DNA of 53,082 nucleotides from the NCBI GenBank assembly GCA_012735505.1, contig JAAYHE010000004.1, positions 1 through 53,082 on the forward strand, read 5' to 3'. Both the position numbers and the translations under genes were made by a program. This document shows, piece by piece, positions 2,022 through 47,460 of this stretch (within the stretch, counting starts at the first letter, position 1; every line of letters begins with the position of its first letter). Source of the DNA: Bacillota bacterium. GTDB lineage: Bacteria; Bacillota; UBA994; UBA5500. Below the pieces are notes generated by a model. It was not told the DNA's origin, made no database searches, and saw only the letters and a program-made list of their open reading frames with translations.

Positions 2022-3809
2022 TTAGAAGCTGCGGATTACTTCATCCACTAGCGAACCGACATAAGCAACTGCTTCGCGGATAGGTTCTTTCTTGGTCATG
2101 TCGACACCAGCCATTTGCGCTAGCTCGAGCGGAGATTTGGTGCCGCCAGCCTTGAGAACATTAATCCAGCGCTCAGCTGCAGGGGCCCCTTCTTCCCGAA
2201 TAGCTTTAGCTACCGCGGTACCGATGGTTAGGCCGGCAGAGTAACTGTAGGGGTAGAGGCCGCGATAATAGTGAGCTTGCCGCATCCATACGAAGCGAGC
2301 GCCGTCATCGATTTCCAGAATGTCGCCCCAGAAATCGGCTAGAATCTCACCTTGTACCTGGTTGAGTACGGCCGCCGTAATCGGCTGTCCTTTTTCGGCC
2401 AAAGCATAAGTACGGCGTTGTAACTCGCCCTCGATCAGGTGGCGGATGAAATTGTGATGATAGGTGCGGAGCAGCTGCATGATCAACCAGCGTCGGGTAC
2501 GGGTGTCGGTACTTTGCGACAGTATGTAATCGCCCACGAGGATTTCATTAGTGGTTGAAGGCGCTTCTATGAAGAACATGGTCGGACGCGTATTAAAGGG
2601 ATGCTGGTAGCGTTGCGCCAGAACACCTTGTCCGGCATGGCCGAGTTCGTGTGCCAGGGTAAGGGCATTGCGCATGCTGTTGCTCCAGGTCATGCAGATA
2701 TAGGGGTGCACTCCTTGGATGGAGCTGCAGAAAGCGCCGGTTCTTTTGCCAATATTGTCGGCGCGGTCTATCCACCTATTGTTTAGCGCCTCCTCCATAA
2801 TGGTAGTATACTCGGGCCCTAGCACCGATAGACCGTTGAGAATGAGTTCCTTTGCTTCTTCGAAAGTAGTGGTAGGGTTGAATTCTGGATCTAATGGTGC
2901 CTCTAAGTCGCAATAGAGCACTTTGTCTAGCCCTAGCACTTCTTTGCGCAATTCGGTATAGCGCCGCATGTGGGGAGCCAATTCGGTCAGAATTACGTCA
3001 TGGAGGTTGTTATAGATATCGATGGTGACTTCTTGCCGATCGAGGAGCATATGAATGGCTGACTCATAGCCCCGCAGTTGCGCCATGACAACGTTCTTCT
3101 TGACTTCAGTACCCCAGGCGGTACCCCAGGTGTTTTGGTATCTTCTTAGCACGTTAGTGAATTCAAAATATGCGTTACGACGCAGGACAATGTCGGGTGA
3201 AGTCTCATAACGTCCGAACGACATGGGCATTTGCCTGCCTTGACTATCTAAGACCGGCTCATAGGTCAAGTCTGCTGTGCGAGAGCGATTATAGATAGCA
3301 GCAGGTGCCCCCAACACTTCCCCCAGTGCAGCTAAAACCTTTTCGGTTTCCGGGCTCAGGAGGTGCGGCTTGCGTTTGATCCAGTTGCGGATGGTGATTT
3401 CATAGGGCTCTAACCCTTGTTCTTCTTCTAAGTAGCGCTCTAGGGTACCCTCGGGCAAACTCAGGGCCTCGGACTGGACGAACGAGATTTCAGCTTGCAT
3501 TTGTGCGCCCATTGCACTAGCCCTGCCAGCCATAGCTTGTATAGCAGGGTTAGTGCCCTCAACCGAGTTGTTAAGCGAGGCATAGGCGAATACTTTTCTC
3601 GACCTAAGTTGTAGGGTTTCAAGAGCCTTTAGGCATCCTAGTAGCACGCTGGCTCCTTCGCCCAATCTGCCTTTGTATTGGGTTACATTGTTGATCAGTT
3701 CAGGTAAAGCAGCAAATTCTTCCTCCCAAGCCTCTACGCTAGGGAAGATATCGTCTAGGTTCCAAGTTTGTTCCACTGGAACTTCCGCTCGTGTAAGGCG
3801 TCTTGCCAT
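2022..3809 (-). CDS. pepF: Oligoendopeptidase F (M3B metallopeptidase)
   Basis: Cytoplasmic zinc metallopeptidase that cleaves short oligopeptides. The 595-residue protein has the zinc-binding HELGH at residues 387-391 with a third ligand, Glu415, in the following IEAPSTTNE segment, as expected for M3 enzymes. The N-terminal half is the helical PepF domain, and the C-terminal YPYSYSAG segment near residue 525 matches the substrate-binding Tyr/His region of the family. The ATG follows AAGGAGGGG at good distance. No signal peptide is seen. It is convergent with deoD, which shares the terminator. Confidence 0.95.
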   Translation of the reverse strand: MARRLTRAEVPVEQTWNLDDIFPSVEAWEEEFAALPELINNVTQYKGRLGEGASVLLGCLKALETLQLRSRKVFAYASLNNSVEGTNPAIQAMAGRASAMGAQMQAEISFVQSEALSLPEGTLERYLEEEQGLEPYEITIRNWIKRKPHLLSPETEKVLAALGEVLGAPAAIYNRSRTADLTYEPVLDSQGRQMPMSFGRYETSPDIVLRRNAYFEFTNVLRRYQNTWGTAWGTEVKKNVVMAQLRGYESAIHMLLDRQEVTIDIYNNLHDVILTELAPHMRRYTELRKEVLGLDKVLYCDLEAPLDPEFNPTTTFEEAKELILNGLSVLGPEYTTIMEEALNNRWIDRADNIGKRTGAFCSSIQGVHPYICMTWSNSMRNALTLAHELGHAGQGVLAQRYQHPFNTRPTMFFIEAPSTTNEILVGDYILSQSTDTRTRRWLIMQLLRTYHHNFIRHLIEGELQRRTYALAEKGQPITAAVLNQVQGEILADFWGDILEIDDGARFVWMRQAHYYRGLYPYSYSAGLTIGTAVAKAIREEGAPAAERWINVLKAGGTKSPLELAQMAGVDMTKKEPIREAVAYVGSLVDEVIRSF

Positions 3810-4366
3810 AAAATCCCCTCCTTACTAAGTAGCCAATGGGCAGCAACTATTACCATTTAATAATTCGTGAGTCTAATAAGTTTTCCTGCTAATTTTTTTA
3901 TAAATAGTGTTGTCTAAGGTGAAGTATTTTGATACAATTTGGCCTAATTACTCCCCTTGAATAAATATGATTTCTTGTGCATATTGCCCAGCACAGGCGG
4001 TGCCCAATATGCTCCTAGCTTGAGAGAAGCTTTATTTCCTGGTCTATGAGAGGACCATATTCAGGGGGGATTTTCTAGCCTCGATCTTCATATAGTTAGT
4101 AACAGACAAGTTGCTTTTCTCGGCATGGTTCTCACTTAAAGTCACAGTAGCGAGGTGGTGGGTTGGGAGTAGTGTCTCTTTGTTCTGACTTATTTATAAC
4201 TTTAAAAGAAAAGCCCTTTTGTGTTATGTAAAACTGTTTAAAAAAAACTTTATTTTAGGCAGGAATTCTGTCTGTGACAATGAATATCCTGATATAGCAG
4301 CATTATTAGGTGCTTGGCCGTCAAAAGGGTCATTTGCTAGGCCGAAAATATACAAGGAGGAAAAGT
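3810..4366. other. AT-rich intergenic region and long leader before the peptide ABC operon
   Basis: Divergent region of about 560 bases with no credible gene. Two candidate promoters read toward the ABC operon: TTGTCT (3910) - 17 bases - TACAAT (3933-3938), and TTGTTC (4180) - 17 bases - TAAAAG (4203-4208). Between them lies an inverted repeat, GCATATTG (3979-3986) with CAATATGC (4005-4012), which has an inner GCAC/GTGC pairing. If the upstream promoter is used, the leader would be over 400 bases. No known riboswitch motif was recognised. Confidence 0.5.
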
Positions 4367-6172
4367 ATGAGGAAAAAACTGCTGTTGCTGTTGTTGTCTC
4401 TTGCCCTAGCAGCTGGGTCACTCGTCGGGTGTGGGCCAAAGGTAGACACGACCACCTTGATCGTGGGGAGTCCCGAGTTATCAGGTAACTTCATTCCTGG
4501 TTTCGGCAATAACGCCTACGATGTTTGGGTACGCAATCTCATCCTAGGCTACTCCACCTATGTCACAACTCCAGCTGGCGAAATTGTTCTTGATGATACT
4601 ACTGTCGTCAAGGAGCTAGTTACCGAAGTCGATGATAAGGGTAACAAGATCTATCAGTTCACCTTGTATGACGATCTGAAATGGAACGATGGTTCGCCGA
4701 TTACCGCCGCAGACTATGTTTTCTACATTCTGTGGTATGCATCACCCCAGTGGAAAAACGCAGGTGCCTCCAGCACTGTCGGCGAAGGTTTGGTCGGGTA
4801 TTCGGCCTATTACAATGGCGAAACCGATCGTTTCAAAGGTGTCAATCTGATTGACGACTACACTTTCTCGGTCACGATTGATGCAAAAGAGCTTCCTTAC
4901 TTCTTTGAGATTACTTATGCGAGCTTCATGCCCTTGCCGATGGCAGTTTGGGCACCTGGTGCCACCATTGATATCAACGAGGATGGTGCCAAGATTGAAG
5001 GCGTCAACCTAGAAGAGGCTACGCAAGAAATTGCTACCGGCGAGCGTTTCAAGCCTACCGTCACCTGCGGGCCATACAAATTTGTCAGCTATGAGAACAA
5101 TGCGGCTACCATGCAGAAAAACGAACACTATAAAGGCAACTACGAAGGCAAAAAGCCCCAGTTAGAAACGGTGATCGTGCGTGCCATCAACCAAGCAACC
5201 GACGTTGACCAAGTCATCAACGGCGAAGTTGATATGGTAACTGGGGTTATCGAGGGCGCCAAGATTGAAAAGGCTAAGGCCGATAAGAACACCGTAGCCC
5301 ACTACTATAGCCGTAACGGTTATGGTGGCTTCTTCATCCACTGCGACTTTGGTCCGACGGCAGTTAAAGAAGTACGCCATGCCTTGGCTTATCTCATGGA
5401 CCGCGACGAAATTATCAAGAACGTGTTAGGCGGTTACGGCTCGGTTGTTAACGCCGAATATGGCTTAGCCCAGTGGATGTATGAAGATAATAAGGATGCC
5501 ATCGATGCATTGCCACACTTCACCCGCGATATTGCTAAAGCTAACGAACTCCTCGATCAAACCGAGTGGAGGTTCGAGGCCGACGGCGTTACTCCGTTTG
5601 ACCCAGAAAAGGCTGACGCAGAAGGCACCTATATCCGTCATAATGCTGCCGGTGAAAAGCTGGTCATTAACCACTTCGGTACCGAAGACAACGACGTTAC
5701 CGACAACGTTGAACTCCAGCTCAGGGCTAACTGTCCGCTGGCCGGTATCGAATTCACTTTGACCCGTGGTGACTTCGACGCTTTGTTGAATTATTACTAC
5801 TTCAGTTTCGAACTAGATCCAAGCGAGCGACAGTACCATACTTTTAACCTAGCATCCAACTTCTCTGTCGCCTACGATCCATATTATAGCTATCACTCTG
5901 ATTGGCTCGGCACTTGGATGAACTCCAACCAGGTCAACGATCCTGAAGTTGATAGAATTACCGAAGCTATGCGGAAGTTAGAACCAGAGCAGAGGGAAGA
6001 ATATTCCAAGTTGTGGCTCGAATGGCAGCAGTTGTTTGCCGACATTCTCCCGGTTATTCCGCTCTACTCTAACCAGTATTACGATATCCACAGCAAGTTT
6101 GTCCATGGTGTAAACACTACCCCGTTAGCCGATTGGTCAGACATCATCTGCGACATCTACAAGGCGAAATAA
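4367..6172 (+). CDS. Peptide/nickel-type ABC transporter substrate-binding lipoprotein (SBP family 5)
   Basis: Extracellular solute receptor of a Dpp/Opp-type importer, anchored as a lipoprotein. The start chosen is the ATG after a strong AAGGAGG site; an in-frame upstream ATG 19 codons earlier lacks one. The N-terminus is MRKK followed by a leucine-rich core and lipobox L-V-G-C with Cys22. The body has the family-5 signature region LKWNDGSPITAADYVF near residues 105-120. At 601 residues it is slightly long for the family. It is the first gene of the operon 4367-11896. The ligand is probably an oligopeptide, but related proteins bind nickel chelates or other compounds. Confidence 0.92.
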   Translation: MRKKLLLLLLSLALAAGSLVGCGPKVDTTTLIVGSPELSGNFIPGFGNNAYDVWVRNLILGYSTYVTTPAGEIVLDDTTVVKELVTEVDDKGNKIYQFTLYDDLKWNDGSPITAADYVFYILWYASPQWKNAGASSTVGEGLVGYSAYYNGETDRFKGVNLIDDYTFSVTIDAKELPYFFEITYASFMPLPMAVWAPGATIDINEDGAKIEGVNLEEATQEIATGERFKPTVTCGPYKFVSYENNAATMQKNEHYKGNYEGKKPQLETVIVRAINQATDVDQVINGEVDMVTGVIEGAKIEKAKADKNTVAHYYSRNGYGGFFIHCDFGPTAVKEVRHALAYLMDRDEIIKNVLGGYGSVVNAEYGLAQWMYEDNKDAIDALPHFTRDIAKANELLDQTEWRFEADGVTPFDPEKADAEGTYIRHNAAGEKLVINHFGTEDNDVTDNVELQLRANCPLAGIEFTLTRGDFDALLNYYYFSFELDPSERQYHTFNLASNFSVAYDPYYSYHSDWLGTWMNSNQVNDPEVDRITEAMRKLEPEQREEYSKLWLEWQQLFADILPVIPLYSNQYYDIHSKFVHGVNTTPLADWSDIICDIYKAK

Positions 6173-6220
6173 GGATAGGGTAACTGAAAGTCCTCCGGTA
6201 GAGCATTTAGGCAAGAGGAT

Positions 6221-6250
6221 AGGGGATGGCCTTGTGCTATCCCCTTTTAC
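6221..6250 (+). terminator. Intercistronic hairpin/attenuator after the binding-protein gene
   Basis: AGGGGAT (6221-6227) pairs with ATCCCCT (6239-6245), followed by TTTT. It lies in the 141-base gap between the binding-protein gene and the first permease gene. Such partial terminators commonly keep the binding protein in excess over membrane components. Confidence 0.5.
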
Positions 6251-6313
6251 CTCTAACTTTTTGTTTATTACGTTAGAAAACTAGCGCGAGGAATAGCAAA
6301 GGAGGCTCCTGTC

Positions 6314-7285
6314 TTGCTAAGATACATCGTGCGCCGGATTATCTCTCTAATTCCTGTCGTTTTGTTGGTAACAGTAATGCTCTTCGCCTTGTTCAAGGTT
6401 ATGCCAGGGGATCCTGTCAGGATGATGCTCAACCCGGGCTTGAAGGCAGAACATTATCAAGCTGCCTATGAAGCTATGAGGCTTAAGTTGGGGTTAGACA
6501 AGTCTTATCCTGAGCAGTATGTCCGGTGGATTACCAACACCTTGCAGGGTGAATTAGGTTGGTCAACGTTAGAGAATAGGCCAGTAAAGGATGCCATTAA
6601 AGAACCGCTCAAAAACACTGTCATCCTTAATATTTTTGTTATTGTCTTGGAACTGGCTATCGCTTTACCGGTAGGCATTAAATGTGCAGTAAAGCGTGGT
6701 AAGCTTTATGACAATTTTTGGCAAGTGTTTTCCATGTTCACATATGCCATGCCGTCTTTTTTTGTGGCGTTAACCTTAATCTATACCATATCTATAAAGC
6801 TAAAACTGCTGCCGCCAGGCGGAATGCCTCTCACCATACACGGTAAAGGGTTCAGCTACTACCTATCCTGGTTGAGATATATGGCTCTACCAGTGATCAC
6901 TTTGACTATTATCAGCTTAGCGGGGACCATCCGTTATGTGCGCAACGCTATGATCGATGCCCTTAGCCAAGACTACATCCGTACGGCCCGCTCTAAGGGC
7001 TTGGCCGAAAAGGTCGTTATTTATTCCCATGCCTTCCGCAATGCGCTAATCCCAGTCTCTACGATCGTTATCGGCGCCATCTTTTCACTGTTCGCTGGCT
7101 CACCGATTACCGAGACTGCTTTTGCTTGGCGGGGTATTGGGCACGTCTTAGTTAAGGCTTTAAACAACCGGGATTTTATGCTGGCTATTTTCATGAACTT
7201 GTTCTTGTCTATGCTTAGCATTACGGCTAATTTTGTAGCCGATATTACTTACGCGCTCGTTGATCCTCGTATTAAACTAGAATAA
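6314..7285 (+). CDS. DppB/OppB-type ABC transporter permease
   Basis: First integral membrane subunit of the importer. It has 323 residues, normal for DppB, with MLRYIVRRIISLIPVVLLV as TM1, the KVMPGDP segment near residue 30 typical of OppB/DppB, and a C-terminal permease core carrying the EAA-loop-like DYIRTARSKGL near residues 220-230 that contacts the ATPases. It starts with TTG after AAAGGAGG. The next permease gene begins 13 bases after the stop. Confidence 0.93.
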   Translation: MLRYIVRRIISLIPVVLLVTVMLFALFKVMPGDPVRMMLNPGLKAEHYQAAYEAMRLKLGLDKSYPEQYVRWITNTLQGELGWSTLENRPVKDAIKEPLKNTVILNIFVIVLELAIALPVGIKCAVKRGKLYDNFWQVFSMFTYAMPSFFVALTLIYTISIKLKLLPPGGMPLTIHGKGFSYYLSWLRYMALPVITLTIISLAGTIRYVRNAMIDALSQDYIRTARSKGLAEKVVIYSHAFRNALIPVSTIVIGAIFSLFAGSPITETAFAWRGIGHVLVKALNNRDFMLAIFMNLFLSMLSITANFVADITYALVDPRIKLE

Positions 7286-7298
7286 AGGAGGCGAAAGT

Positions 7299-9185
7299 AT
7301 GGACAATAGAAGACAGCGCGACCCAGTTTTGCAGGAAAAAAGAGGCGTGCTTCAGTCCTTCTTCGCCTTTATCAAGCGGCTCTTTGTCAAAGAAGACAAG
7401 AAGCTTTCGGTGCTAGAGGAAGAAGCTCTACAGACACCTGCTAAAACTGTGATTAAGAACTTTTTCCGCCACAAGTTAGGGATTTTGGGGTTGCTAGGTT
7501 TTATTGCCATCCTTACCTTCTCTTTCTTAGGCTCTAAATTGGTCCCGATCAACTTATCCTTGCAAGAGACTACCTTGCGCAACATACGTCCGGGCTATAA
7601 TTATCTCAAGTATCCTACCCAGTTAGTTCAAGAAGGGGTTAAGGAAATTTCTTCGGGCGCTTCTTTTTCTGTTGGCCTTTCTCAGGCGGGTAACGTCTAT
7701 GTATGGGGAACCGTGCCGACTTATCTGTTAGAGGGCTTTGCCACTTCAGTACTGCAAGTGCCAGAGGAAGTACAAAAAGCTAATATTGTAAAGGTCTCTG
7801 CTGGCGACCGTCACATTTTAGCCTTGGATGACCGTAATCAGCTCTATTGTTGGGGGCTAAATAACTTTGAGCAAGCCACGCTACCCAGTAAGTTGCAGTC
7901 AAAACTGGCTAGCACCCCTGTTGCCCAGATAGTCGGGGGAGAGCTTTATTCGGCTGTGCTTTTTGCCGATGGCGAGCTATTTGTCTGGGGAGGCACTATG
8001 GGTAACCGGCTGGATATAGTCCCCCTTCATTGCCAAGGGCGTATTACAAAAATAGCTGCTAGCTCTAATAATATGGCGCTCCTCTTAGACGATGGTACCG
8101 TTGAGGTTACTGGTATTCAAACTGTTGTCAAACAGGTGCCCGAGCAGTTGCAAGATGGTAGCGTTAAGGTTGTAGACATTGTTGCTTCTTACCGTAATGC
8201 CATGGCTCTGGATGAGCAGGGGCAACTCTATGTTTGGGGTGATCCCGAGCACGGCATGTTGCGTATTCCCGCATATCAGGGTCAGATCAAGGCCTTGGCG
8301 GCGGGCAAGAGCAATCTAGCTGTCTTGCTAGACAATGGGCAAGTAGTCATTTGGGGAGATAATCACTATAAACAGCTAGAACTTCCCGAAAAAGTGCAAA
8401 GCCAGCCAGTTACCCAGCTTTATTGCACCATGTTTCAAAATTATGCTGTGCACCAAGACGGCTCTCTTAGTGCTTGGGGTAATAAAGGGTTTATTTTTGG
8501 CACCGACGAACAAGGGAGGGATTTGCTTACTCGTGTTATCCATGGTGGGCGTATCTCGTTAACGGTTGGCGCAATTGCAGTTGTCATCTCGGTTGTCATC
8601 GCTCTTTTCTTTGGTATGACCGCGGGTTTCTTTGGTGGTATGACCGATAATATATTGATGCGTTTTACGGATTTTGTCATGTCTATTCCCTTTTTGCCTA
8701 TGGCAATCACACTTTCGGCCGTCGTTAGGGGCAAGGTATCCGAGATGAACCGCATTTATATGATGATGGTAATTATGGGTTTCTTGATGTGGCCGGGCTT
8801 AGCCCGTTTGGTACGCGCCCAGATCTTGCTCGAAAGGGAGAAGGATTTTGTTTTGGCTGCTCGAGCACTAGGTGTGCGCTACCATAACATAATTGTCCGG
8901 CACATTCTACCCAACATCTTTAACTTGGTTTTGGTCAACATTACGCTAGCTTACGCTGGGTCACTCCTCACCGAGGCGGGCTTATCCTATCTCGGCTTTG
9001 GGGTGGCACCACCAACACCGTCTTGGGGTAACATCCTGCAAAATGCTCAAAGCCTAGCTGTTATCGAATATTATTGGTGGCGATGGTTGATCCCAGGTAC
9101 ATTTGTGGTTCTCGCTGCTCTCTGCATTAACTTAGTAGGCGACGCATTGCGCGAGGCTATGGATCCCCGCGCCAGCGAGAAATAG
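7299..9185 (+). CDS. DppC/OppC-type ABC permease with an inserted seven-repeat RCC1-like beta-propeller
   Basis: Second permease subunit, 628 residues, about twice the usual ~300. Residues 1-60 are cytoplasmic and residues 60-80 form TM1. Residues ~113-396 are seven RCC1/BLIP-II-like repeats (YVWG, YCWG, FVWG, YVWG, VIWG, SAWG strand ends, with the fourth degenerate). The normal DppC sequence then resumes at FGTDEQGRDLLTRVI (residues 400-414), followed by the transmembrane core and an EAA-like loop, ARALGVRYHNIIV, near 520. The insertion sits in the TM1-TM2 loop, which faces outside in this family, so the propeller should lie on the outer face next to the binding lipoprotein. The frame is continuous and the ATG follows AAAGGAGG. 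Binding or docking is inference. Confidence 0.93.
   Translation: MDNRRQRDPVLQEKRGVLQSFFAFIKRLFVKEDKKLSVLEEEALQTPAKTVIKNFFRHKLGILGLLGFIAILTFSFLGSKLVPINLSLQETTLRNIRPGYNYLKYPTQLVQEGVKEISSGASFSVGLSQAGNVYVWGTVPTYLLEGFATSVLQVPEEVQKANIVKVSAGDRHILALDDRNQLYCWGLNNFEQATLPSKLQSKLASTPVAQIVGGELYSAVLFADGELFVWGGTMGNRLDIVPLHCQGRITKIAASSNNMALLLDDGTVEVTGIQTVVKQVPEQLQDGSVKVVDIVASYRNAMALDEQGQLYVWGDPEHGMLRIPAYQGQIKALAAGKSNLAVLLDNGQVVIWGDNHYKQLELPEKVQSQPVTQLYCTMFQNYAVHQDGSLSAWGNKGFIFGTDEQGRDLLTRVIHGGRISLTVGAIAVVISVVIALFFGMTAGFFGGMTDNILMRFTDFVMSIPFLPMAITLSAVVRGKVSEMNRIYMMMVIMGFLMWPGLARLVRAQILLEREKDFVLAARALGVRYHNIIVRHILPNIFNLVLVNITLAYAGSLLTEAGLSYLGFGVAPPTPSWGNILQNAQSLAVIEYYWWRWLIPGTFVVLAALCINLVGDALREAMDPRASEK
7635..8489 (+). 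repeat. Seven tandem RCC1-like blade repeats within the permease gene
   Basis: Protein-level repeats of 38-50 residues beginning near residues 114, 163, 208, 248, 290, 329 and 371. Each runs roughly I/V-x-x-I-x-A/G-G-x-x-x-x-x-A-L-x-x-x-G-x-L-Y-V-W-G. Seven units suffice for one closed propeller. The repeats are diverged in DNA, so they are not a recent nucleotide duplication. Confidence 0.88.
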
Positions 9186-9197
9186 GGGGGTAAGAAA

Positions 9198-10193
9198 ATG
9201 AGCTTACTAGAGATTAGAGACTTACACACCTATTTTGAAACCCGGCGCGGCCTCATTAAAGCTGTAAATGGAGTTTCTTTGCAGATAGAAGAAGGCCAGA
9301 CATTAGGCATAGTAGGTGAATCGGGCAGTGGCAAAAGCCAAACGGCTTTGAGTATCTTGCAGTTGTTTGAAGAGAACCAGCGAATTTACTCCGGCCAGAT
9401 CATCTTCCAAGGTAGAGATATTACCCACCTAAAGCGAGAGGAACTCTATGAAATTCGCGGCAACTCTATTTCCATGATTTTTCAGGAGCCGATGACTTCG
9501 TTAAATCCGGTCTTTACAGTGAGTCGGCAAATTAGCGAGCCGCTAATATTACATCAAGGACTCGGCAAGAAGGAAGCACACCAGCGTGCCATCGAGATGC
9601 TGGCAGCGGTTAAGATTCCCAACCCGGAAGAAATTGTCTTGCAATATCCGCACCAACTCTCTGGCGGCATGCGGCAACGGGTGATGATTGCTATCGCTTT
9701 GGCTTGTCGCCCGAAATTGTTGATTGCGGACGAGCCCACAACTGCCTTGGATGTAACTATTCAAGCGCAGATTTTACGCTTGATGAATGAACTCAAAGAA
9801 GAGTTTAATACGGCTATCATGTTTATTACCCACGACCTTGGGGTTATTAACCAGATGGCCGACGATGTAGCTGTGATGTACTGTGGGCAAGTGGTAGAAA
9901 TGGCACCGGTAGAGTTAATTTTTAAACCGATAAGCGATTTCTCCCATCCGTATACGGAAGCGCTTCTACTTTCCATTCCCCTGCTAAAGAGCCAACAAGG
10001 TTCGCGTTTGGAGGCTATTCCGGGCGCCGTGCCACATCCTCTAGACTTACCTAAGGGCTGTAAGTTTGCTCCGCGCTGCAAATACGCCACTGACAAATGC
10101 AGGGAAGAGGAGCCAGATCTGTTCCAAGTTGGCCCTAAACAATCGGTCAGATGCTTCTATCCGCGGAAGGGAGTGAGAAGTAGTGGAGAATAA
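9198..10193 (+). CDS. DppD/OppD-type ABC transporter ATPase
   Basis: First ATPase subunit of the importer, 331 residues as is usual. It has Walker A GESGSGKS near residues 35-42, the Q-loop segment FQEPMTSLNP, signature LSGGMRQR, Walker B LLIADEPTTALD, and the C-terminal oligopeptide-transporter domain with the Cys-containing CKFAPRCKYATDKC segment. The ATG follows a GGGGGGT site 12 bases after the permease stop. Its 3' end overlaps the next gene by 11 bases, which suggests translational coupling. Confidence 0.95.
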   Translation: MSLLEIRDLHTYFETRRGLIKAVNGVSLQIEEGQTLGIVGESGSGKSQTALSILQLFEENQRIYSGQIIFQGRDITHLKREELYEIRGNSISMIFQEPMTSLNPVFTVSRQISEPLILHQGLGKKEAHQRAIEMLAAVKIPNPEEIVLQYPHQLSGGMRQRVMIAIALACRPKLLIADEPTTALDVTIQAQILRLMNELKEEFNTAIMFITHDLGVINQMADDVAVMYCGQVVEMAPVELIFKPISDFSHPYTEALLLSIPLLKSQQGSRLEAIPGAVPHPLDLPKGCKFAPRCKYATDKCREEEPDLFQVGPKQSVRCFYPRKGVRSSGE

Positions 10194-11724
10194 GAAGGTT
10201 CTCATCCGCATTCAGAATCTGACGAAACATTTTCCGATCAAGAAAAAATCCATTTTCCAGCGCGAGCAACTGTTTGTGCAAGCCAATGATAATATCACCT
10301 TGGATATTTATGAGGGCGAAACCTTTGGCTTGGTAGGTGAGAGTGGTTGTGGTAAATCTACTTTAGGCCGGGTGATTCTGCAGCTTTATCCGCCGACTAG
10401 TGGCACTACCCTCTACTACGGGAGAACCTTAGAGGATTTTAAGCCTAGATATGTGAGAAGAACCATTGTGCGGCTGCCCCAGATTGTAGCCGATTACAAG
10501 CGGGTATGCAGGGAGTTGCAAATAGATTTGTTGGCCGCCAACGAGTTGGAGTTAAATCGGCGCCTGCGCCGGGTGCGCTCTCGTTACCAGGATGCAGTGC
10601 GAATTGCGGGTGGCTTGGTAATTGCGGATGACTTGCAGCTGGTCTCGCGGGTACTGCTGGAAGAATATGAAGCTAGCGGGGTGCAGTTCCCCTTGGCTAA
10701 AGAACTGGAAGACCTGGCTTTACAGCGAGACACACTGCTGGCACTTCCCGATAAGGGCGAGGAAGAAAACAAGCTGTTGGCCGAGTGCGAGAAAAGGATA
10801 GCGGAAATAACACCCAAGTTGGCTACAGCAAACTCGGTTCTCGAGGAGAAACGCGCTGCCCTGCAAGAGCTGCGCCAGCGCTATGCTGATAGACCGGGTT
10901 TCGCAGAGGTCGACGAGCTACGAGATAACGGAATTGACCTCACCCAATTAACAGCGGGGGAAATGAGGGTATTGCGCCGGGAGCTACAAGTTATTTTCCA
11001 GGACCCTTACTCCTCCTTAAACCCGCGGCTGACGGTGGGGCAAATTATTAGCGAGGCCTTAACGGCCCATAAGATCTTCAAGAGTGGTAGCCGGGCCTTA
11101 GAGCAATTCGTGCTCGATATCATGGACAAATGTGGGCTACAGCACTATATGTTGCACCGCTATCCGCATCAGTTTTCGGGGGGGCAGCGGCAACGCATCG
11201 GTATAGCTCGGGCTTTAGCGGTGCAGCCCAAGTTTGTGGTATGCGACGAACCTGTCAGTGCCCTCGACGTGTCTATCCAGTCGCAAATCATTAACCTGCT
11301 GCTAGATCTAAAGGAGCAAAACGACTTAACCTATTTGTTTATTTCCCACGATCTTAGTGTGGTAAAGTTCATCAGCGATCGCATAGGAGTCATGTATTTA
11401 GGCACGCTGGTGGAACTGACGCGTTCAGATGAAATATTCGAGAGGCCTTTACATCCTTATACTAAGGCCTTGTTGGAAGCCATCCCTACCACCGAAGACG
11501 AACCCAAGAAAGAACTGGCGGTAATCCAGGGTGATATTCCTAGCCCGATTAATCCTCCTAGCGGGTGTAGGTTCCATACTCGCTGCAAGTATGCGACCGA
11601 AAAGTGCCAGGAAGTGGAGCCCGAGTGGCGGGAGCTTTATCCGGGGCACTTTGTCGCTTGCCATTATCCGCTGGTAAATAGGGGTGAAGAAGTTGTTCAA
11701 GAGACTAAAGGAGCGTCTGCCTAA
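10183..11724 (+). CDS. DppF/OppF-type ABC ATPase with a large coiled-coil insertion
   Basis: Second ATPase subunit. Walker A GESGCGKST is at residues 52-60, Q-loop FQDPYSSLNP at 272-281, signature FSGGQRQR at 331-338, Walker B FVVCDEP at 351-357, and the C-terminal Cys-containing GCRFHTRCKYATEKC at 461-475. The distance from Walker A to Q-loop is ~210 residues instead of ~40. Residues ~82-255 are an insertion rich in Glu, Arg, Leu and Lys with heptad-like stretches, predicted to be helical coiled coil. The total of 513 residues compares with the usual ~320. It starts with GTG after GGAAGGGAG. All nucleotide-binding motifs are intact, so it should be active. Confidence 0.93.
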   Translation: MENKKVLIRIQNLTKHFPIKKKSIFQREQLFVQANDNITLDIYEGETFGLVGESGCGKSTLGRVILQLYPPTSGTTLYYGRTLEDFKPRYVRRTIVRLPQIVADYKRVCRELQIDLLAANELELNRRLRRVRSRYQDAVRIAGGLVIADDLQLVSRVLLEEYEASGVQFPLAKELEDLALQRDTLLALPDKGEEENKLLAECEKRIAEITPKLATANSVLEEKRAALQELRQRYADRPGFAEVDELRDNGIDLTQLTAGEMRVLRRELQVIFQDPYSSLNPRLTVGQIISEALTAHKIFKSGSRALEQFVLDIMDKCGLQHYMLHRYPHQFSGGQRQRIGIARALAVQPKFVVCDEPVSALDVSIQSQIINLLLDLKEQNDLTYLFISHDLSVVKFISDRIGVMYLGTLVELTRSDEIFERPLHPYTKALLEAIPTTEDEPKKELAVIQGDIPSPINPPSGCRFHTRCKYATEKCQEVEPEWRELYPGHFVACHYPLVNRGEEVVQETKGASA

Positions 11725-11896
11725 GAAAAAAACCCAAGCAGAGTTAGACGAGCACTATCGGAAAATGGAGGAAATCCAGCTCGAGCCCGGCGATTTGCCA
11801 GCTATGATTATTGCTGCTTTTCTCACCTTGGGCATACCGCTACTTCTTATTGCTGGACTCATTTACGGAGCTATCTACCTGCTCTTTCTGCGCTAA
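11693..11896 (+). CDS. Small single-pass membrane protein at the end of the ABC operon
   Basis: About 67 residues: a basic N-terminus (FKRLKERLPKKK), a short acidic stretch, and one hydrophobic segment (roughly AMIIAAFLTLGIPLLLIAGLIY) near the C-terminus. It is not recognised as a known family. The TTG at 11693 has an AGGGGTG site at good distance. An in-frame GTG at 11684 would add three residues but has no ribosome binding site. It overlaps the 3' end of the ATPase gene and is followed directly by the operon terminator, which supports it being a real last cistron. Confidence 0.6.
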   Translation: MFKRLKERLPKKKTQAELDEHYRKMEEIQLEPGDLPAMIIAAFLTLGIPLLLIAGLIYGAIYLLFLR

Positions 11897-11905
11897 GACA
11901 GCACA

Positions 11906-11935
11906 ATACCCAGCCATTGTGGCTGGGTATTTTTG
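11906..11935 (+). terminator. Terminator of the peptide ABC operon
   Basis: Perfect 10-bp stem (11906-11915 with 11921-11930), 5-base loop, then a T-run. Confidence 0.92.
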
Positions 11936-14259: not shown

Positions 14260-14400
14260 CCAAGCTCTTAACATTGTGGTTGATTTCTTCTTTTGTATTA
14301 TGACATAGGTGCTGGATTTCGTCATGTTACCGGCGGGTCTCTAGCTTGAATCCGGCAGACGCGCATGGTAATCTAATAATAAATCAACAATATTTATACG

Positions 14401-14627
14401 CTGTGAAGAAAGCTAGTAGCCACTGCATTATGCTGGCAGAGAGTCGGTGGGTGGGTGCAAACCGATACTGGTGCAGATGTGCGAATTACCTTTCGGAGCC
14501 AAGGTGGTGAACTGACAGTAGCTGCCTTCGGTGCCCACCGTTATAGGGTTAGAGTGAGCAGCTTTAGCTGCTAATCAGGGTGGTACCGCGAGCAAAACTC
14601 GTCCCTACAGGGGGACGAGTTTTTTGT
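14401..14627 (+). promoter_or_regulatory. T-box leader (tyrosyl) controlling tyrS
   Basis: tRNA-sensing attenuator. The canonical T-box AGGGTGGTACCGCG is at 14577-14590. It is followed by a terminator with stem AAAACTCGTCCC (14594-14605) / GGGACGAGTTTT (14612-14623) and a T-run. Upstream is a Stem I region with AGAGAG and GGGTGGGTGCAAACC apical elements. A Tyr codon UAC lies at 14487-14489 in a GAATTACC context before CGGAGC, the expected specifier position; a second TAC occurs at 14466-14468. By family knowledge, uncharged tRNA-Tyr favours the antiterminator. A weak candidate promoter is TTGAAT (14346) - 17 bases - TAATCT. Confidence 0.95.
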
Positions 14628-14689: not shown

Positions 14690-15928
14690 ATGCCAGAACA
14701 TTTATCGCCAGCGGAACGTGCCGAATGGGAACGACAATTAGCTATTTTGCGCCACGGTACTGTAGCCATTACGCCAGAGGAAGAGTTTAAAGAGAAGCTA
14801 GCCAATTCCATTCGGAAGCAGAAACCCCTCAAGGTGAAGTTGGGCTTAGACCCAACAGCACCGGACATTCATCTGGGGCATACGGTCGTCATCCGCAAAC
14901 TAAAGCAGTTTCAAGATTTGGGGCATCAGGTGCAGTTGGTGATCGGAGACTTTACTGGGCGTATCGGTGACCCCAGCGGTCGCTCGGAAATGCGCCCTGC
15001 CCTGACCGAAGAACAGGTACAGGCTAATGCTCGTACATATGTGGAGCAGTATGGAAAAATCCTGGATATGGAGCGCACCGAACTCCACTTTAACAGCGAG
15101 TGGTTAGCACCCCTTACCTTTGAAGACATTATTCGGCTCGCCAGTACCATGACCCTGGCGCGTATGTTAGAGCGCGATGACTTCCAGAAACGCTTCAACG
15201 AAAACACACCTATCAGTTTACACGAATTCTTTTACCCCCTGATGCAGGGCTATGATTCGGTGGCGCTGGAGACAGATGTGGAGCTGGGGGGTACCGATCA
15301 AACTTTTAACCTGCTCGTAGGCAGGCATCTGCAGAAAGAGCGTGGCCTACCCCAGCAAGTGGCCATGACCATGCCATTGCTCGAAGGTTTAGACGGCGTG
15401 CAAAAAATGAGCAAGAGTCTAGGCAACTACATCGGTATCAATGATGAGCCGGCAGATATGTATGGTAAGACCATGTCGGTGCCCGACGAGCTGATGCTCA
15501 GATATTACGAGTTGACTACCGATATTGGTCCGTCTAAGCTAGCAGAACTAGCAGCAGGGCTGGCCAATGGCAGTGTGCACCCGCGGGATGCCAAGATGCG
15601 GTTAGCTCATACCTTGGTGAGCATGTACCATGGGAAGGCTGCAGCAGATGCGGCTGAGCAGCACTTCCGCACCGTTTTCCAGAAAGGGGCCTTACCAGAA
15701 GATATGCCCGAACATGTTTGGACAGGCCCTGCCAGTGCTAGCATAATCGATCTTGTCCACGGTACTGGGCTCGTTTCCACCCGCAGCGAGGCTCGCCGTA
15801 TGGTAGAACAGGGGGCCGTACGGGTTAACGAAGACAGGGTAACTGACACCCAGCAGGTCTTTGCGGTAACCGATGGCCTAGTTGTCCAGGTCGGTAAACG
15901 CCGTTTTGTGCGCATAATGTTGCCCTAG
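14690..15928 (+). CDS. tyrS: Tyrosyl-tRNA synthetase
   Basis: Charges tRNA-Tyr. This class I synthetase of 412 residues has the HIGH-type motif HLGH at 61-64 and KMSKS at 239-243, a Rossmann core including [13 protein letters not shown] near 198-209, and a C-terminal S4 RNA-binding domain ([17 protein letters not shown]). The [13 protein letters not shown] segment places it in the TyrZ-like bacterial subgroup. A GAGGTGG site precedes the ATG. Expression is controlled by the T-box leader just upstream. Its last 51 bases overlap the 3' end of the convergent DinG-type helicase gene. Confidence 0.97.
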
Positions 15929-46264: not shown

Positions 46265-47251
46265 CTACTTGTCAGGCAAGAAATCGTTAGTAAAGGCCTG
46301 TGTGATATCGATTTCTTTTTCTAACAGTCCCTTGCTTAACATCCATTCAGTATAGCCTTCCCATACTTCCAACTTCTGTTCTCCCCAGCGGGGAGCATCG
46401 TCCTGATACTTATCGGCTAGCCAGACCTGACTGGCACGCACGAGTTCGGGATCTAGGTCGGGTACGGCAGTGAGAAGAATTTGAGCAGCCTCCTCGGGCT
46501 CGGCAATGGCGAATTCATAGCCTTTTGTCACGGCTGCCATGAAGGCTTTGACTAGTTCTGGCTTTTCGGCCGCCAAAGCCTCACTGGTCACCAGAATGGG
46601 GGTGTAATAGTCCAGCTGGGGAGATAAATCCCGCACGTAAATCATGTTGAGGGGAAAATTTCGCAATTCAGCTTCGATGCCAGTCCAGGCATAAAAGGCC
46701 CAGGCGAAGTCGATGTCGCGCTGAACGGCAGTGAAAAAATCTACATCCCCGATGTTGATGAACCTAACCTTGTTAACGTCAGCACCTTCAATTTCCATGA
46801 CCGATTGAATAACAGCCGCTTCGACAGGAGATCCCCAACCGCCGTAAGCTTTGCCTTCGAAATCTTTCGGGCTTTTAATATTTTTCTCAGCCGGCGAGGC
46901 GAAGCCAGAAGTGTTGTGCTGAATGATGGCGGCAACAGAAATAACCGGGATGTCCTGCACCCGCGCCTGCGTCAATTCTTCCTGGTAGCTGACACCGAAG
47001 GCAGCATTGCCGCTAGCTACCGTAGACAAAACGCCGGCATCTCCAGGAAGGATGATTTCTACATTTAACCCTTGTTCCTGAAAGTAACCTTTGGCCTGAG
47101 CCACATAGAGGCCTGTGTGGTTAGTGTTAGGGGTCCAGTCGAGCACTACTGTTACTTTTTCATCGGCTGGCTGCCTCTTATTTTGGCAAGCGGCTGTTAA
47201 GGTCATCACTAGGACGAGCAGCATGGCTATCACAAAGCGACGCCTAGACAT
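46265..47251 (-). CDS. Thiamine-precursor ABC transporter binding lipoprotein (NMT1/ThiY-like)
   Basis: Extracellular binding protein of 328 residues. The signal peptide ends in the lipobox L-T-A-A-C. The mature part begins with VTVVLDWTPNTNHTGLYVAQAKGYF, the signature of the NMT1/THI5-like family that binds formyl-aminopyrimidine or hydroxymethylpyrimidine, and has the family GGWGSPVEAAVIQS segment. The ATG at 47251 follows AAGGAGGT; the longer reading to 47323 enters the riboswitch terminator. First gene of the operon 47251-44360. Confidence 0.93.
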   Translation of the reverse strand: MSRRRFVIAMLLVLVMTLTAACQNKRQPADEKVTVVLDWTPNTNHTGLYVAQAKGYFQEQGLNVEIILPGDAGVLSTVASGNAAFGVSYQEELTQARVQDIPVISVAAIIQHNTSGFASPAEKNIKSPKDFEGKAYGGWGSPVEAAVIQSVMEIEGADVNKVRFINIGDVDFFTAVQRDIDFAWAFYAWTGIEAELRNFPLNMIYVRDLSPQLDYYTPILVTSEALAAEKPELVKAFMAAVTKGYEFAIAEPEEAAQILLTAVPDLDPELVRASQVWLADKYQDDAPRWGEQKLEVWEGYTEWMLSKGLLEKEIDITQAFTNDFLPDK

Positions 47252-47283
47252 GGTGTTATTACCTCCTTGTTGCATATTCGAGA

Positions 47284-47312
47284 CAAAAACGCCTCCCGAA
47301 GCTGGGAGGCGC
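47284..47312 (-). terminator. Terminator of the TPP riboswitch
   Basis: On the minus strand CGCCTCCC - AGCTTC - GGGAGGCG, 8-bp stem, followed by T5, directly after the aptamer and before the ThiY-like gene. Confidence 0.93.
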
Positions 47313-47339
47313 CCGTAGGCCAAGATGGCTGGTTTCAGT

Positions 47340-47433
<94 letters not shown>

Positions 47434-47460
47434 GGTAATTCCGTTGTCTCGTGCTACATC

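Follow-up and report, generated by a model that had tools for sequence, protein, structure and literature searches.

Few bacterial transporters are as common as the peptide importers of the Opp/Dpp type, whose known design leaves extracellular recognition to a separate lipoprotein. Published structures of DppABCDF from E. coli show the SBP as a cap over DppB and DppC, a scoop formed by the TM1-TM2 region of DppB that contacts the SBP cleft, and a pairing of DppC with DppF (PMC12136057). The importer described here resembles E. coli OppBCDF and DppABCDF (8z21, 8z1v-8z1z; PMC12136057) in its five-subunit plan, in a homologous OppC transmembrane domain (TMD) and in OppD and OppF subunits with a C-terminal Cys-rich oligo_HPY region, and OppC-OppF pairing is expected. 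The E. coli proteins differ in that DppC and OppC are 300-302 residues long with a short TM1-TM2 region, DppF and OppF are 333-334 residues long without a helical insert, and the deposited complexes are without a small subunit. Opp4/App importers provide the best NCBIfam models for both permeases (NF045476 Opp4C for OppC and NF045472 Opp4B for OppB), although the scores lie below the cut-offs (300.7 against 350 and 286 against 450, respectively), and the match of the 278-position Opp4C model to the fusion OppC spans the TMD only. The domain inserted in OppC resembles BLIP-II (3qi0, 3qhy, 1jtd), a seven-bladed propeller of the RCC1 type, with 29% identity over 246 columns, but BLIP-II is a free secreted inhibitor whereas the OppC propeller sits between a pair of TM helices in an importer. 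The likeness to BLIP-II is one of fold only, and inhibition of beta-lactamases by the OppC propeller is not implied. UVR8, RPGR, HERC2 and RCC1 share the seven-bladed RCC1 fold, but these proteins are eukaryotic and soluble, have longer blades (360-400 aa) and serve different functions. No literature joining an RCC1 domain and an ABC transporter permease was found among open-licence papers.

The DNA analysed, here called the window, is a stretch of 53,082 nucleotides from a Bacillota bacterium (assembly GCA_012735505.1, contig JAAYHE010000004.1). The importer encoded there belongs to the Opp/Dpp peptide ABC importers, with Opp4/App as its nearest group, and its OppC carries a propeller in the first extracellular loop. 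The features of the operon and its surroundings are as follows.

2022-3809, minus strand: oligoendopeptidase F (M3), divergent from the operon (Peptidase_M3, E 1.5e-43)
4310-6172, plus strand: family-5 peptide-binding lipoprotein, OppA-like (SBP_bac_5, E 1e-44)
6314-7285, plus strand: OppB permease (BPD_transp_1, E 1e-34; best NCBIfam match Opp4B)
7299-9185, plus strand: OppC permease of 628 aa that includes an RCC1-type propeller (ATG start, no internal stops)
7473-7541, plus strand: TM1 of OppC, residues 59-81 (AlphaFold2 helix; OppC_N match)
7617-8492, plus strand: seven-bladed propeller of OppC, residues 107-398 (AlphaFold2, Foldseek)
8433-8444, plus strand: blade-7 signature F379-Q380-N381-Y382 (Q380 invariant, 35/35)
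8496-9182, plus strand: canonical OppC TMD from FGTDEQGRD, residues 400-628 (Opp4C match, Foldseek)
9198-10193, plus strand: OppD ATPase, 331 aa (Pfam, NCBIfam)
10183-11724, plus strand: OppF ATPase with helical insert, 513 aa (NCBIfam OppF/DppF, Foldseek)
10447-10926, plus strand: OppF insert, residues ~89-248 (AlphaFold2 pLDDT about 85-97)
11684-11896, plus strand: small protein with one TM helix, 70 aa, unannotated (GTG start; 41-nt overlap with the 3' end of oppF)
11905-11931, plus strand: intrinsic terminator directly 3' of the small gene (12-bp stem and T-run; z = -3.9)

The five genes that define an Opp/Dpp system are present, namely a family-5 SBP, two BPD_transp_1 permeases and two ATPases with oligo_HPY. 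They form a tight operon in the window, and the order SBP-oppB-oppC-oppD-oppF is kept in all complete fusion loci. The terminator-like site at 11905-11931 is the strongest of the region. An Rfam search of the operon returned no elements; elsewhere in the window, a T-box leader (14394-14609) precedes a tyrosyl-tRNA synthetase-like gene (14690-15928), and a TPP riboswitch (47328-47441, minus strand) lies upstream of a minus-strand gene (46265-47323). The mature SBP probably starts at an LVGC lipobox, and its best PDB match is the peptide-binding OppA 9p48. M3 oligoendopeptidase F-type genes flank the operon in the window and at loci L062 and L077, where they were confirmed with Pfam, and at L049, where the assignment is by similarity. 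Relatives of the L077 gene adjoin L067, L075 and L076, of which that at L075 failed Pfam. Because of the likeness of the SBP to 9p48 and the M3 peptidase neighbours, uptake of oligopeptides for intracellular cleavage is the likely role of the importer.

Pfam matches divide the 628-residue OppC into a permease and an inserted domain. OppC_N covers residues 46-91 (22 bits, slightly below the cut-off of 23.9) and BPD_transp_1 covers residues 436-625 (E 3e-29). Between them, RCC1_2 matches in six stretches (E 7e-40, 134 bits against a cut-off of 22), RCC1 matches with E 8e-8 (33 bits against 21.7), and the RCC1-like domain WD40_RLD (PF25390) reaches 140.2 bits, below its curated cut-off of 150. 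The Opp4C match covers residues 394-624. Four more OppC-like proteins are encoded in this genome; they have frames of 272-295 aa and no insert, and they align only at residues ~394-626. An AlphaFold2 model built with 35 relatives (mean pLDDT 84, pTM 0.77) contains seven groups of three strands within residues 114-394, mostly at pLDDT > 90, with blades at 114-137, 163-187, 208-231, 249-272, 291-314, 330-353 and 371-394. This propeller is flanked by the TM1 helix (59-81) and by OppC helices from residue 409, and the loop that holds it is ~318 residues long. Blade 4 is without a WG ending, which is probably why Pfam finds six repeats and not seven. In a Foldseek search of the PDB, the best match for the propeller was BLIP-II (3qi0_C, with E 6e-20 and a target-length TM-score of 0.77), followed by UVR8, RPGR and HERC2. 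The superposition on BLIP-II at TMt 0.77-0.82 is in keeping with a ring that would close between blades 1 and 7. The remainder of OppC matched E. coli DppC/OppC and M. tuberculosis OppC (8z1w_B, 8z21_B, 8j5q_C), with a TMt of 0.70 to 8z1w_B and 0.72 to 8z21_B. A profile search of PDB sequences agrees with Foldseek and aligns the OppC TMD to 8z21_B at E 4e-70.

An earlier note on this DNA had described seven RCC1 repeats after TM1 with the FGTDxxGRD region continuing in frame. That description holds, and the predicted seven three-strand groups speak against the possibility it had raised that the domain is not a propeller; its estimate of ~285 residues becomes ~292 (107-398). Its label "DppC-type" is right as to an OppC/DppC-type permease, while the closest NCBIfam model is Opp4C instead of DppC, below cut-off. 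Its placement of the propeller outside the cell, beside the docked binding lipoprotein, is supported by homology to OppC topology, in which TM1, after a basic N-terminus, would run from inside to outside. Its further proposal, of a propeller that binds peptide, cell wall or another protein and makes the permease a receptor, is more conjectural.

The attachment of the propeller is nearly constant in length. From the WG of blade 7 to the Gly of GTD there are 6 residues in 35/35 fusions, and from TM1 to blade 1 there are 31-32 residues in 34/35, the 35th being cut by a contig end. With linkers so constant on both sides, the propeller probably keeps a fixed pose. Since strands alternate within a blade, the chain exits blade 7 where the strand1-strand2 loops lie, only six residues away from the membrane-proximal segment, and the face formed by these loops should, on topological grounds, point to the membrane side. 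On it lies the only invariant motif that is clearly specific to the family, the [FY]Q[NS]Y sequence in blade 7, whose Q is present in 35/35 fusions as against 0/39 repeats of other RCC1 proteins. The position of the motif on the membrane-side face favours a contact within the complex, without proving it. On this face the sector of blades 6-7-1-2 is the most conserved; for the whole strand1-strand2 face against the opposite face, the difference in conservation (0.58 vs 0.50) is not significant (sign-flip p = 0.125).

The reading preferred here, held tentatively at a probability of about 0.42, is that the propeller serves outside the cell as a rigid module on which the peptide-binding lipoprotein docks. 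The propeller would sit fixed on the outer face of the transporter, at the site where a DppA-type lipoprotein docks, and would occupy the OppC half, pseudo-symmetric to the SBP-contacting scoop of OppB. There it may engage the peptide-loaded lipoprotein, and perhaps OppB as well, and so hold or orient the SBP for transfer, while the OppF insert, on the same OppC-OppF half, and the small protein may stabilise or regulate the complex. In favour of this reading, the SBP, OppB, the propeller, the TMD and OppD have evolutionary distances that correlate with one another at 0.84-0.97. A mirror-tree test for the SBP as partner of the propeller gave no special SBP signal. The best residual partner by partial distance correlation with the propeller is OppB (0.33), as against 0.11 for the SBP, and this preference for OppB over SBP weakens the docking model.

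Propellers of the RCC1/BLIP-II type often bind proteins outside their own complex, which makes an external partner possible for OppC as well. The propeller might then be a receptor itself that captures peptides, wall fragments or an extracellular protein from the surroundings and either passes them on or senses them, much as BLIP-II, the nearest solved fold, binds beta-lactamases. Its mean distance (1.22) exceeds that of the TMD (0.60), as might be expected of a surface for variable ligands. Against such a role, the length of the attachment is constant, the strongest family-specific invariants lie near the membrane attachment and not on the distal face, and every complete locus already has a dedicated peptide-binding lipoprotein. 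We consider a receptor role unlikely, if deserving of some weight.

OppC is not the only enlarged subunit. OppF of the fusion operons has about 470-560 residues, compared with ~330 in ordinary OppF, and alignment to solved OppF-type ATPases places an insert of ~150 aa behind the strand that follows Walker A and ahead of the pre-Q-loop segment. In the window, the best NCBIfam OppF/DppF matches are split in two stretches, Foldseek matches 8z21_D, and AlphaFold2 predicts long helices in the insert at residues 98-112, 126-147, 151-186 and 193-234. By homology to the Dpp pairing, the insert would be on the inner side of the OppC-OppF half. A search of 398 genomes found it in 13, of which 12 are fusion genomes and one (G193) holds a deletion remnant, so that within this set the insert occurs only with the propeller-bearing importer or its remnant. 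In G351, the one fusion genome without an insert match, the contig breaks off near the fusion gene. In the G193 remnant (L169, contig C42, around 5218-7756), oppD and oppF with the insert are kept, and the SBP, oppB, oppC and small genes are gone; it lies between TDH/KBL genes and a BMP-type lipoprotein, like L051 and L052.

The small gene after oppF is short and would be overlooked under ordinary gene-length limits. A homologue with one TM helix and 56-132 residues lies 3' of oppF in 28/29 operons, and pN is three to seven times below pS, which indicates that the gene encodes a real protein. Searches of Pfam and NCBIfam gave no match. A profile of the small protein matched 27/398 genomes, 12 of them with the fusion. 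Outside the fusions, in 11 of the 14 regions examined the match follows an ordinary oppF (L196, L198, L204, L206, L207) or comes directly after a family-5 SBP gene (L195, L199, L200, L201, L203, L205); in L197 an additional gene separates it from oppF, and in L194 and L202 there is no such neighbour. Since some of these matches outside the fusions are weak, with E values reaching 0.001, the limits of the family are provisional. The family thus occurs at the end of Opp operons or after SBP genes in several Bacillota families.

Neither of these two additions was mentioned in the earlier note, and together they show that the whole transporter, and not OppC alone, is specialised. In its strongest form, this would make the importer a distinct and anciently fixed class with three coordinated additions, namely the propeller as a second, permease-borne receptor, a cytoplasmic helical arm on OppF and a one-TM subunit drawn from an unnamed Bacillota family of proteins that serve family-5 SBP importers, a proposal that we regard as doubtful though worth keeping in mind. 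Propeller, OppF insert and small protein might also form a regulatory axis, through which a signal from outside alters ATPase activity or localisation of the complex. Both inserts are on the OppC-OppF half, on opposite sides of the membrane (pairing from PMC12136057), and they co-occur in 12 of the 13 genomes, the 13th being the remnant that is also without the small gene. However, the residual evolutionary correlation between the propeller and the OppF insert is nil (-0.01), and relatives of the small protein beside ordinary Opp systems show that it is not propeller-specific. A regulatory axis is accordingly judged quite unlikely.

The fusion is found well beyond the window. A collection of 84,980 genomes was scanned with two short patterns, which miss many relatives, and 34 fusion loci (L047-L080) were obtained, all in Bacillota MAGs and with identity down to 28%; the scan also returned eight loci of unrelated RCC1 proteins. 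No cultured host of the fusion was seen in this two-pattern scan, which misses many relatives. The earlier note had expected the architecture to be uncommon and, if genuine, to recur in many genomes, and both expectations are borne out by these loci and by its occurrence in 13 of 398 genomes drawn evenly across the phylum. In a second draw of 397 genomes, fusions scored at least 855 bits and other OppC proteins at most 313 bits among the matches listed. Full-length OppC relatives are present in G001-G004 and G023 at 59-75% identity and across other genomes at 28-75%, which argues against both chance and a mis-assembled join. An apparent 628-aa OppC of G022 (L031) was rejected as a fusion, since the OppC itself has 322 aa and the additional length is a frame read through upstream of it. 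No locus examined has propeller and OppC as two separate genes, the split arrangement that the earlier note had named as evidence against a genuine fusion. Plasmid-borne spread was considered and rejected, since no plasmid record covers at least 80% of the fusion; among the matches listed, plasmids match the TMD region only.

In a maximum-likelihood tree of 84 OppC TMDs, 38 fusions form one clade with support of 100/98. Its sister group has an enlarged loop, with 138-172 residues before the TMD and no propeller. The fusion has a single origin and has been retained across diverse Bacillota, inherited along with the remaining operon. Other OppC proteins have acquired different domains: those of L122, L123 and L143 carry an unrelated domain of ~200 aa in the first outer loop, and that of L041 carries a separate unrelated insertion of ~200 aa at the same position. 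They resemble the fusion OppC in the site of the extra domain and differ in lying on separate branches of the tree, so loop 1 of OppC has acquired domains more than once. The inserts of L041, L122 and L123, the three that were scanned, had no Pfam match. Such insertions indicate a site that tolerates bulk, as would suit a propeller that takes no part in transport and acts as a passive spacer or as an anchor to, say, the S-layer or cell wall. The invariants of blade 7 and the constant linkers, kept over 28-75% identity, suggest more than a spacer, and we regard this explanation as improbable. An assembly artefact or one-off gene fusion, which the fragmentation of the source genome (87 contigs) might have suggested, has a negligible probability and is ruled out by the 34 loci, the 13 of 398 genomes and the single clade of 38 fusion permeases from different assemblies.

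Overall, the propeller-bearing importer is an old and conserved redesign of a common nutrient importer. It is a known importer type with new additions, namely a propeller in the permease, a helical arm on OppF and a small membrane protein, to which functions are assigned putatively. Through large sequence divergence the propeller has been retained, and with it the matching ATPase addition and the tiny membrane protein. The small protein, a candidate subunit for which Pfam and NCBIfam have no model, also lies beside ordinary Opp operons. If the reading given here is true, a permease-borne propeller with ATPase and small-protein additions would imply that docking or sensing is, in some importers, the task of a module of the importer itself.
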